A stretch of DNA of 64,000 nucleotides from Gordionus sp. m RMFG-2023 (taxonomy: Eukaryota; Nematomorpha; Gordioida; Chordodea; Parachordodidae): assembly GCF_954871325.1 (NCBI RefSeq), contig NC_088779.1, forward strand, positions 8,186,846 through 8,250,845. Direction: 5' to 3'. Below the pieces are notes generated by a model. The model was given only the letters and a program-made list of their open reading frames with translations. It made no database searches and was not told where the DNA came from. Below, piece by piece: positions 40,201-53,453 of this stretch. The position numbers were made by a program, and so were the translations under genes. How positions within the stretch are numbered: the stretch's first letter is position 1; each line of letters opens with the position of its first letter.

Positions 40201-40321
40201 TTAGTATAATGTTTCTTGAGCCATTGAACAATTGGGATCTCTCCGGATCAAAAATTTCCTGAATTCATCAAACAAGAATATGAATAACGCGAAAGGAATA
40301 GACGGCAGCAACCACCAAAAT
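40201..40321 (-). CDS. Gene B exon 22: TM10 and C-terminus
   Basis: It encodes [20 protein letters not shown] and ends CSMAQETLY then TAA. The GGW..KETYY tail of gene A is replaced by NCSM..ETLY, so the C-terminal Tyr pair is altered. Length (121) and phase equal gene A exon 20. Confidence 0.85.
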
Positions 40322-52300: not shown

Positions 52301-53453
52301 TTTATTATATAAAATTAAAATTATTTTTATACAATACAAACTTCTAAAAAATAATAAGATTTGACTTGATTAATAACTATTAGCTCGAAACTTAATCGAT
52401 ATATGAGGGTAATTTATTTTTTTGGAAGGGAAAGTTGCTCCGATAAATAAATCAAATCGTTGGGGGTATCAATATATGAAATGATTTGACCAGGTCCCAA
52501 ATTTGCTCAATTATAACATAGTTATACGTTGATTAATTATGTTTACGTATTGTGTTGAGAGCTTGAGGAAAAAGTAAATCTGAAGTCCGTAAACGAGGAA
52601 ACAAAGGATCGTAGTCATCCACAAAATAATGCCATAGCCATTAAGGGTGTTCTTCATTGAGGTTTGAAGGAATTTGACACAATTTGGGACTCCCTTGATC
52701 ACTGAATAATCTTTGGTAGCCAGGATATTGTTTGGTCCATTTTTAGCCAACATTTCCAAAGCCCTTGTTTGTGAAAAGCCCTGCAGACCAAATTAACGAG
52801 TATAATTATTTTGGATTGAATCATAAATAGTAAAATAAAAAAATAGAAGTTACCTTTTTAGGATCTGTCCCTAATTTCATGTAAAAGTCTTCGAGATTCA
52901 ATCTGTGTTCATCCTAGATATGAATTTAGAAATCGTTTATTTATTATATTACAGATTATAGCAGGAATAATTGAATATACAAAACAAATAAAATAGCTGT
53001 TTCCCTAAATTTTCTAAAAGCGGGTTATGGTTCTGAAAATTTAAGTTCCTATGGTTCCAAGTTCCGTTTCCAAAACTTCGATAACGCAATTCATAAAAAA
53101 TTTTAAGAACAATAAATAAATCCTCTAAAAATAAATCACCCTACATTTATATACAATCGTTTAGTTTAAACGGGTTCTAGAAAACCGGTACCTGGAAATA
53201 TTAAGATAAATTCTGTTTCCGCTGTAAATTCTAAAAGTGTGTTCCAGATTTAGATTTCTAAACTCTGAAATAAATCCCATTTTAAAAAAAAAATATTGTT
53301 GCATGCTAAACTTACAATTTCGAAATCCTTTTTAAGCAACTCCAGATCCTCTGGGTGGGTGTATGTGTTTATGTTGAGGATCCAAAAGACGAATCTGGCG
53401 AAAATGTTCGAGGTTGGGATAGATTGATCAATATTTTCCTTACCTTCCTCCAT
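40201..53453 (-). CDS. Gene B: catalytically dead Na,K-ATPase alpha-like paralogue
   Basis: Twenty-two exons join in phase: 53316-53453, 52854-52913, 52547-52780, 51625-51741, 51391-51528, 50290-50407, 49662-49936, 49063-49354, 48442-48556, 48093-48210, 46043-46266, 45614-45805, 45189-45345, 44906-45042, 43984-44315, 43653-43751, 43327-43481, 42785-42879, 41852-42026, 41434-41570, 40792-40893, 40201-40321. They encode 1176 residues with no internal stop, about 140 longer than gene A because of insertions in the N and P domains. All intron positions of gene A are kept. TGES became FGRH, DKTGT became DDSSL, DPPR became KCHV, TGDHP became TSQNK and TGDGVND became TGRNTPD. It therefore should not form a phosphoenzyme. 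TM segments and several ion-site carboxylates remain. A pseudoenzyme with a structural, regulatory or channel-like role is an inference; an old decaying copy is less likely given the intact frame. Confidence 0.86.
40792..40893 (-). CDS. Gene B exon 21: TM9
   Basis: It encodes [20 protein letters not shown] and then [13 protein letters not shown]. The Glu in LLEV aligns with Glu954. Acceptor TACAG|A and donor AA|GTATAA. Length equals gene A exon 19 (102). Confidence 0.85.
41434..41570 (-). CDS. Gene B exon 20: TM8
   Basis: It encodes [20 protein letters not shown] and then [19 protein letters not shown]. The residue equal to Asp926 is Asn (codon AAC, 41490-41492). It is two codons longer than gene A. 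Splice sites TAG|ACC and AG|GTATAA. Confidence 0.84.
41852..42026 (-). CDS. Gene B exon 19: TM7
   Basis: It encodes [37 protein letters not shown] and ends SYGQEW. The MAENGF..LLG and SYGQEW words, implicated in beta-subunit contact in the family, are kept. Length 175 equals gene A. Acceptor CAAAG|A and donor TGG|GTATCA. Confidence 0.87.
42785..42879 (-). CDS. Gene B exon 18: TM6-TM7 loop
   Basis: It encodes [20 protein letters not shown] then [11 protein letters not shown]. It aligns without gaps to gene A (VPAISLAYE...MKRRPRN). Acceptor GATAG|CTG and donor AA|GTTAAT. Length equal (95). Confidence 0.85.
43327..43481 (-). CDS. Gene B exon 17: TM5-TM6
   Basis: It encodes [19 protein letters not shown], then [20 protein letters not shown] and CIDLGTDL. 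Equivalents of Tyr771, Ser775, Asn776, Glu779, Asp804 and Asp808 are kept, while the TM5 Pro778 is Ser. So half of the ion pocket survives in a pump that should not cycle. Length equal to gene A (155). Confidence 0.87.
43653..43751 (-). CDS. Gene B exon 16: P-domain tail
   Basis: It encodes [20 protein letters not shown] and [13 protein letters not shown]. It is one codon shorter than gene A exon 14 and diverged, but starts and stops at the same splice phases (AAAG|GA and GAAG|GTTAC). Confidence 0.82.
43984..44315 (-). CDS. Gene B exon 15: P-domain, broken Mg2+ loop, insertion
   Basis: It begins [20 protein letters not shown], aligned to [12 protein letters not shown]. An insertion of about 38 residues, rich in Asn and Thr (for example [15 protein letters not shown]), follows. 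It ends [20 protein letters not shown] and [13 protein letters not shown]. The TGDGVND loop is TGRNTPD (44012-44032), so Asp710 is Arg. Acceptor AATAG|T and donor ATAG|GTTTTA. Confidence 0.84.
44906..45042 (-). CDS. Gene B exon 14: lost TGDHP motif
   Basis: It encodes [20 protein letters not shown] and [20 protein letters not shown], ending KIDP plus AG. It aligns base for base in length (137) with gene A exon 12. TGDHP is replaced by TSQNK (45016-45030). Confidence 0.86.
45189..45345 (-). CDS. Gene B exon 13: hinge segment, lost DPPR
   Basis: It encodes [40 protein letters not shown] and [11 protein letters not shown]. The family DPPR hinge motif becomes KCHV. Gene A has no intron at this exon's start, so the 45346-45613 intron is specific to gene B. 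Acceptor CACAG|T. Confidence 0.8.
45614..45805 (-). CDS. Gene B exon 12: N-domain with insertion
   Basis: It encodes [40 protein letters not shown] and a Ser/Asp-rich stretch ending [18 protein letters not shown] aligns with RVLGFCHLFLP..FP. Two in-frame acceptors six bases apart (starts 45805 or 45799) are possible. Donor CG|GTTTAA fits the next exon's phase; a nearby A|GTGAGC would break the frame. Confidence 0.75.
46043..46266 (-). CDS. Gene B exon 11: N-domain, KGNP
   Basis: It encodes [20 protein letters not shown], then [20 protein letters not shown] and [25 protein letters not shown] of gene A is KGNPL, keeping the Lys501 equivalent. Acceptor TTAAG|ATG and donor AG|GTTTTC. The His/Asn-rich loop is not in gene A. 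Confidence 0.82.
46267..48092 (-). other. Gene B intron 10
   Basis: A 1.8-kb intron. Its part 47480-47990 is less AT-rich than its surroundings and contains a plus-strand frame (47501-47692, with [17 protein letters not shown]) of no known family. A TAGAGGTCTGCAAAACCCGG word at 47024 marks one end of the GC-rich MITE family. I see no exon needed for gene B here. Confidence 0.55.
48093..48210 (-). CDS. Gene B exon 10: N-domain
   Basis: It encodes [20 protein letters not shown] and [19 protein letters not shown]. It aligns with [11 protein letters not shown]...IVEIPFNSTNKYQ of gene A but is five codons shorter and lacks the GDASE word. Acceptor TACAG|T and donor CAA|GTATG. Confidence 0.82.
48442..48556 (-). 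CDS. Gene B exon 9: N-domain start
   Basis: It encodes [20 protein letters not shown] then [27 protein letters not shown] is the recognisable core. Acceptor TACAG|GA and donor AG|GTTATT match the phases of gene A. Confidence 0.82.
49063..49354 (-). CDS. Gene B exon 8: destroyed phosphorylation site
   Basis: It begins [20 protein letters not shown], with an insertion of about 30 residues compared with gene A. It continues [20 protein letters not shown] and [24 protein letters not shown].(V)ETLG is clearly kept, but [11 protein letters not shown] is [11 protein letters not shown] (core 49178-49192). The Asp may remain, but the Lys-Thr-Gly-Thr that shape the site do not. Acceptor CACAG|GGT. Confidence 0.86.
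49662..49936 (-). CDS. Gene B exon 7: TM3-TM4
   Basis: It encodes [20 protein letters not shown] and later [20 protein letters not shown], ending [12 protein letters not shown]4 VANVPEG becomes IAFIPES: Glu327 and Pro326 are kept, Asn324 is Phe. Acceptor ATAAG|GT and donor ACG|GTAAAT. Confidence 0.87.
50290..50407 (-). CDS. Gene B exon 6: lost TGES motif
   Basis: It encodes [20 protein letters not shown] and [19 protein letters not shown]. It aligns gap-free with gene A exon 6 at identical length (118). TGES is FGRH (50378-50389), removing the Glu that drives dephosphorylation. Acceptor ATAG|GTT and donor GAAG|GTATA. Confidence 0.84.
51391..51528 (-). CDS. Gene B exon 5: actuator domain
   Basis: It encodes [40 protein letters not shown] and TKDVLK. 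The VVGDIVE and VPADMR turns of the actuator domain are kept. Acceptor TTAAG|AAA and donor AAA|GTAAAA. It is one codon longer than gene A. Confidence 0.87.
51625..51741 (-). CDS. Gene B exon 4: TM2
   Basis: It encodes [20 protein letters not shown] then [19 protein letters not shown]. The end aligns with QE.KSSKIMESFK.MVPQ. Acceptor ACAAG|TTA and donor AAG|GTTTAC, phase 0 at both ends, one codon longer than gene A. Confidence 0.85.
52547..52780 (-). CDS. Gene B exon 3: TM1
   Basis: It encodes [20 protein letters not shown], later [20 protein letters not shown] and [12 protein letters not shown]. The words AL..LA.(N/D)GPN and GY.ILLW...LCFL.Y anchor it. The TM1-TM2 loop is diverged and the exon is ten codons longer than in gene A. 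Acceptor TGCAG|GGC and donor TAC|GTAAAC. Confidence 0.86.
52854..52913 (-). CDS. Gene B exon 2: cytosolic N-terminal segment
   Basis: The 20 codons read [20 protein letters not shown], aligned with [20 protein letters not shown] in gene A at identical length and splice sites (CTAG|GAT, AAG|GTAACT). Confidence 0.9.
53316..53453 (-). CDS. Gene B exon 1: N-terminus
   Basis: It starts [20 protein letters not shown] and ends [13 protein letters not shown] before donor ATT|GTAAGT. The L.LLKKD.E end matches LEDLKKEVE of gene A. The ATG at 53453 is the first in frame. The frame upstream stays open for about 25 codons without another ATG, so an earlier splice acceptor cannot be ruled out. The Lys-rich patch of gene A is missing. 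Confidence 0.75.

Follow-up and report, generated by a model that had tools for sequence, protein, structure and literature searches.

A probably maintained and apparently non-pumping paralogue of the Na,K-ATPase alpha subunit in Gordionus sp.

Can the gene for an ion pump subunit persist under selection once the residues that drive the pump are gone? The question is raised by gene B, a minus-strand gene of 22 exons in a 64,000-nucleotide stretch of the Gordionus sp. genome (the window, G000:C5:8186846-8250845, in an assembly of 287 Mb and 267 contigs; positions without a contig are those of the window). The gene encodes a protein related to the alpha subunit of Na,K-ATPase in which the six catalytic motifs are broken and the reading frame is open throughout. 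Judged from its sequence, the protein very probably does not work as a pump through the standard cycle, and there is good reason to think that the gene is maintained.

According to the comparisons made here, gene B is a Na,K-ATPase alpha by descent. A rough, hand-made composite of the protein found its best PDB match in 4xe5_A (phmmer, E 2.4e-191 and 641.5 bits for a match split into three stretches), ahead of the best H,K-ATPase-type chain (549.3) and the best calcium pump (189.6). The curated protein scores 758.3 bits against TIGR01106, which is below the cut-off of 946.1, yet this is by far its best NCBIfam model; among the Pfam domains, the N-terminal, E1-E2, Cation_ATPase and C-terminal ones exceed their cut-offs and the hydrolase domain falls just short. 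The intron positions of the neighbouring gene A are matched exactly and in the same phase in 16 of 19 cases, the remaining three being at most 5 residues off. Identity to the pig/bovine reference is 37.9 percent for B vs 62.9-76.6 percent for eight paralogues, designated by letters, and the proteins of B and gene C share a fraction of 0.395 (locus E is excluded from all counts and trees, and H is masked ahead of residue 250 and J beyond residue 975, where exons are missing from the models). The protein resembles the Na,K-ATPase alpha family (P2C, TIGR01106) in length, in its ten membrane segments, intron positions, SYGQEW sequence and most cation ligands, and departs from it in the six broken motifs and the family score below cut-off.

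The loss of the catalytic motifs is extensive, with 9 of 30 motif residues remaining in the alignment. TGES is replaced by FGRH, DKTGT by DDSSL, KGAPE by KGNPL, TGDHP by TSQNK and TGDGVND by TGRNTPD, while DPPR is aligned by MAFFT to SLAK, or to KCHV when a 3-residue insertion is placed elsewhere, and is lost both ways. Changed residues include E214R, D586 (S in the alignment), G611S, D612Q, D710R, N713P, F475T, K480Q and R544H; those retained are D369, K501, G502, T610, T708 and D714, together with K691, which is not among the 30, and T371 has become Ser. Given the presumed roles of these residues (D710 as a Mg ligand, E214 in dephosphorylation, and F475, K480 and R544 in the ATP pocket), the changes would abolish Mg binding and remove both the glutamate needed for dephosphorylation and the pocket for adenine. 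The losses are spread over separate exons. An initial annotation of this DNA, made from the letters alone, had described every motif as erased and the protein as unable to run the usual pump cycle. The latter is well supported by the motif and ATP-site losses, and the replacements FGRH, DDSSL, TSQNK and TGRNTPD that it listed are seen in the alignment; the former is true of the motifs as units but not of single residues, nine of which survive, D369, K501 and D714 among them, and its KCHV in place of DPPR, a motif that is indeed lost, requires the alternative placement of the insertion.

The gene carrying these losses is structurally intact. In the curated model, whose exons were set by hand, it spans 53522-40201 and its introns are GT-AG in 21 of 21 cases. 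Frame 0 holds 1186 codons, the sole stop being the terminal one at 40201-40203, whereas the other two frames hold 118 and 87 stops, and the pig/bovine alpha-subunit reference, aligned across introns with a purpose-written script, runs continuously from 53351 to 40204 with 0 frameshifts. The 22 exons, the canonical splice sites and the absence of stops and frameshifts had all been reported before, and the stop codon and an ATG at 53453 had been placed correctly; this ATG is probably internal and not the true start, because the frame of exon 1 stays open upstream as far as an AG at 53523. This exon encodes YDRADSYRVAV..., whose DSY is also present in gene I and which presumably resembles Na,K-ATPase N-termini more widely. 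Counted from that ATG the curated protein has 1163 residues, not the 1176 first given, and a start exon upstream of exon 1 was not found. At the exon 12/13 junction an AG 8 nucleotides upstream of the acceptor at 45337 looks the better one by eye but would break the frame, and 45337 was chosen because it preserves the frame. Gene A lacks counterparts of the introns on both sides of exon 12, and large insertions are apparent in the alignment. Scans for Rfam families and tRNAs returned 0 matches. The exons, all on the minus strand, are as follows.

53316..53522, minus: exon 1, N-terminal cytosolic tail YDRADSYRV... (open frame behind the AG)
52547..52913, minus: exons 2-3, start of the A domain and M1 (spliced alignment, curated model)
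51391..51741, minus: exons 4-5, M2 and A domain (spliced alignment, curated model)
50290..50407, minus: exon 6, A domain with TGES replaced by FGRH, E214R (curated model, alignment)
49662..49936, minus: exon 7, A domain, M3 and M4, NVPEGL replaced by FIPESF, E327 retained (model, DNA search)
49063..49354, minus: exon 8, DKTGT replaced by DDSSL, D369 retained, insertion ahead of the motif (model, alignment)
46055..48556, minus: exons 9-11, N domain, KGAPE replaced by KGNPL, F475T, K480Q (model, alignment)
45189..45799, minus: exons 12-13, N and P domains, large insertion, R544H, DPPR lost (model, alignment)
44906..45042, minus: exon 14, TGDHP replaced by TSQNK (model, alignment)
43984..44315, minus: exon 15, insertion, K691 retained, TGDGVND replaced by TGRNTPD with D710R and N713P (model, alignment)
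43327..43751, minus: exons 16-17, end of the P domain, M5 and M6; Y771, S775, N776, E779, D804, G806, T807 and D808 retained, T772M, T774I, P778S (model, alignment)
41852..42879, minus: exons 18-19, M6-M7 and the M7-M8 loop, SYGQEW retained (model, alignment)
40201..41570, minus: exons 20-22, M8 with D926N, M9 with E954 retained, M10, C-terminus ETLY and stop (model, alignment)

Evidence that selection has kept this frame open comes from several sides. Between B and C the first, second and third codon positions are identical at fractions of 0.537, 0.671 and 0.345, and 35 of 151 fourfold sites agree (for F and C: 0.710, 0.842 and 0.396, and 74 of 249), a pattern in which the synonymous sites of B look saturated and the second positions do not. 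A codon model covering 985 codons in nine genes gave a log-likelihood of -20171.6 when omega (the ratio of nonsynonymous to synonymous rates) was free on the B branch, -20174.6 when all branches shared a single omega and at best -20249.8 when the omega of B was fixed at 1 (optimum over a grid of branch lengths, other parameters fixed), and the last is rejected. With the B branch set to a clock-like length of 2.66, omega is 0.64 overall, and 0.58 in the A domain, 0.75 in M1-M4, 0.69 in the P domain, 0.90 in the N domain and 0.44 in M5-M10; the gene is one with a long history of purifying selection, strongest, by this model, in M5-M10. The guanine and cytosine content at fourfold sites (GC4) is 0.476 in B vs 0.254 in its own introns, and 0.286-0.435 in the other eight genes. 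A rough clock, which assumes that motif residues are held while the pump works, converts the motif identity of 0.30 into about 0.6 neutral substitutions per site. When gene C was evolved neutrally in simulation (two base compositions, 30 replicates under each), means of 33-45 stops and an amino-acid identity of 0.43-0.44 were reached at 0.4, and 43-57 stops and 0.27-0.28 at 0.65; the fewest stops in any simulation were 26, and B has 0 internal ones. The simulations bear out the argument of the initial annotation that a neutral pseudogene this diverged should have gathered stops, and its view that selection keeps B agrees with the open frame, the codon-position bias and the rejected omega of 1. 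A neutral pseudogene is ruled out by the open frame, the GT-AG introns, the codon-position pattern, the omega test and the stop simulations taken together.

What has been kept is distributed unevenly over the protein. Among residues identical in the eight paralogues and the pig/bovine reference, B retains 45 of 65 in the A domain, 21 of 66 in M1-M4, 49 of 120 in the P domain, 26 of 66 in the N domain and 89 of 134 in M5-M10, with domain borders that are approximate. Motif residues are significantly less retained than those of M5-M10 (Fisher p 0.0004). All ten assumed membrane segments remain hydrophobic (means 1.24-2.24), and the SYGQEW of the M7-M8 loop, in which SYGQ is the putative contact with the beta subunit, is unchanged. 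The high retention in the A domain and M5-M10 and the low one in M1-M4 are read as favouring, among the regulatory, beta-binding, scaffold and ion-leak roles that the initial annotation had considered possible, a membrane or beta-binding role over a pump-like gated ion path.

Since catalysis is lost while M5-M10 and the presumed beta-contact loop are kept, the simplest reading is that B is a maintained, non-pumping alpha, a pseudoenzyme, that still pairs with beta and acts as a partner, regulator or scaffold; we give this an even chance, and set the beta-partner or scaffold role taken by itself slightly short of that. The protein would fold in the membrane and associate with a beta subunit by way of its conserved M7-M10 part and, standing alongside intact paralogues, compete for beta or stabilise it; alternatively, it might work as a junction or signalling scaffold. 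A search for the beta family gave four exon-like matches, all in one 20-kb stretch on contig C2, that is, at least one beta locus, set against at least ten alpha-like loci. Beta pairing by itself would not account for the well-kept A domain, for which a cytosolic contact may be responsible.

A number of observations weigh against such a maintained beta partner. Retention in the A domain is on a par with that in M5-M10, a fact that a pure beta-partner role leaves unexplained, and the beta contact of SYGQ is itself putative. Retention in the motifs is not clearly poorer than among other cytosolic residues (9 of 30 vs 111 of 221, p 0.05) or in M1-M4 (20 of 64, p 1.0). In the codon model, the single omega (0.061) is only 3 log-likelihood units poorer than the free one, and, with synonymous change on the B branch saturated and the free fit at the branch-length bound, omega has no firm value; moreover, the selection tests merge the periods before and after the catalytic loss into one average, and the clock argument would shorten if positive selection drove the motif changes. 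GC4 is also low in some intact paralogues (G 0.286, J 0.336), and one splice junction, that of exons 12 and 13, relies on a second-best acceptor. Finally, in CATP-1 of Caenorhabditis elegans, for which a pump-independent role was suggested, the pump-site mutant D409E had a strong effect in one assay, according to an excerpt of the report, which means that pump activity matters there too (PMC11631496).

The cation site invites a different explanation, namely that a pump was turned into an ion path or sensor, the retained ligands giving a passive Na/K leak, a channel or an ion-dependent receptor with no ATP-driven cycle. The residues E327, Y771, S775, N776, E779, D804, G806, T807, D808, Q923 and E954 are retained in B; of 13 selected cation positions 9 are invariant, and the 8 of these 9 that B keeps exceed the motif residues (9 of 30, p 0.005). 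This becomes 8 of 11 (p 0.03) when the altered T772 and T774 are counted, P778 is altered as well, and the 8 of 9 do not stand above the rest of M5-M10 (82 of 127, p 0.27). With N324F and D926N lost and M1-M4 poorly retained, which speaks against a pump-like gated path, we consider this explanation rather unlikely, and its bolder form somewhat more doubtful still: here the alpha subunit would have become a membrane protein devoted to something other than pumping, with much of the Na/K pocket kept to conduct cations passively or to sense them, as the P-type equivalent of a channel derived from a transporter.

It is comparably improbable that B is dying, a paralogue that was once maintained but, with selection relaxed, is now on its way to a pseudogene. 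Its very long branch (2.06 substitutions per site vs 0.03-0.49 for the other terminal branches of the tree), its large insertions and the N-domain omega at clock-like branch length could be so understood, but the frame without internal stops, the intact splice sites, the well-retained A domain and M5-M10 and a GC4 far above the intron value weigh against decay, unless the gene was switched off recently. A cycle that continues by altered chemistry would have D369, K501, K691 and D714 to work with, and Ser at 371, but is very improbable given the loss of the presumed Mg ligand (D710R), dephosphorylation residue (E214R) and ATP pocket (F475T, K480Q, R544H). An assembly or gene-model artefact, to which the unusual exon 12/13 junction might point, was rejected as scarcely credible, since the spliced model is intact, the motif losses lie in separate exons, codon positions and GC4 are typical of coding DNA, and a DNA search of the genome with exon 7 matched this exon alone.

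In our judgement, the case for pump-independent roles of Na,K-ATPase has largely been built on genes whose products also pump, where it is confounded by the loss of pumping. If B is what it appears to be, an alpha kept by selection without catalysis would allow the two roles to be told apart and the parts of the subunit behind each to be identified. At the septate junctions of Drosophila, the second role is reportedly borne by a working pump, and we know of no dedicated inactive alpha copy in that organism. A pump-independent role of Na,K-ATPase at these junctions, like that proposed for B, is described in the excerpted source (PMC12125057). CATP-1 is likewise an alpha paralogue with a suggested pump-independent role, but unlike B it has a conserved D-K-S/T-G-T sequence (with D409) and is not a pseudoenzyme by sequence, as far as the excerpt goes (PMC11631496). 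Pseudoenzymes such as the pseudophosphatase STYX share with B the loss of catalysis in a protein that is kept (PMC8907265, in excerpt), though they belong to a different superfamily. No dedicated inactive Na,K-ATPase alpha turned up in the excerpts of the open-licence PMC literature.

Gene B is one of at least ten alpha-like loci (a lower bound) between 8.167 and 11.891 Mb of the chromosome-scale contig C5, namely A, B and eight beyond the window, which were traced by following matches to PF00122 (38 in total) at 8.17-11.89 Mb; of three other open frames with PF00122, two look by eye like P5-type pumps and one like a plasma-membrane calcium pump. The motifs DKTGT, KGAPE, DPPR, TGDHP and TGDGVND occur in 9 of 9 other alpha loci and TGES in 8 of 9, the ninth falling in a part of H that is absent from the model. 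Genes C, A and B are consecutive and all on the minus strand. The placement of B beside A, C and D is weak (ultrafast bootstrap 53 in the best tree): of nine placements, sister to A alone (p 0.005 in the approximately unbiased test) and sister to H (0.017) were rejected and seven were not. A young tandem copy of A is ruled out by the first of these.

15616..34830, minus: gene A (aligned part), 20 exons, six of six catalytic motifs (spliced alignment)

The cation site of gene A carries N776K and G806E (M5-M6, window 20367-20521), and gene D also has Lys at the N776 position of M5 (G000:C5:9242830-9242984); B retains N776 and G806. Artemia alpha2KK (PDB 8k1l), which we take to be the brine shrimp pump of altered stoichiometry, is, like B, a specialised invertebrate alpha; with its M5 lysine presumably at the same position, it resembles A and D rather than B. 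Unlike B, it is a pump, and the brine shrimp alpha, which has a lysine in each of M4 and M5, moves 2 Na per 1 K, as stated in an excerpt (PMC10812997).

Among the other paralogues, gene F (G000:C5:10387730-10398050) has S775H and D926N in its cation site and intact catalytic motifs. At locus E (G000:C5:9913563-9914015), an intron donor is GC instead of the GT seen in F, a close relative, and an apparent frameshift was reported beside this donor. One intron of gene A (window 21207-22679) contains nested inverted repeats with arms of 440 nucleotides (95 percent) and 297 nucleotides (91 percent), and introns of this gene (window 25231-27194 and 29092-30089) contain transposase-like open frames that look hAT-like by eye.

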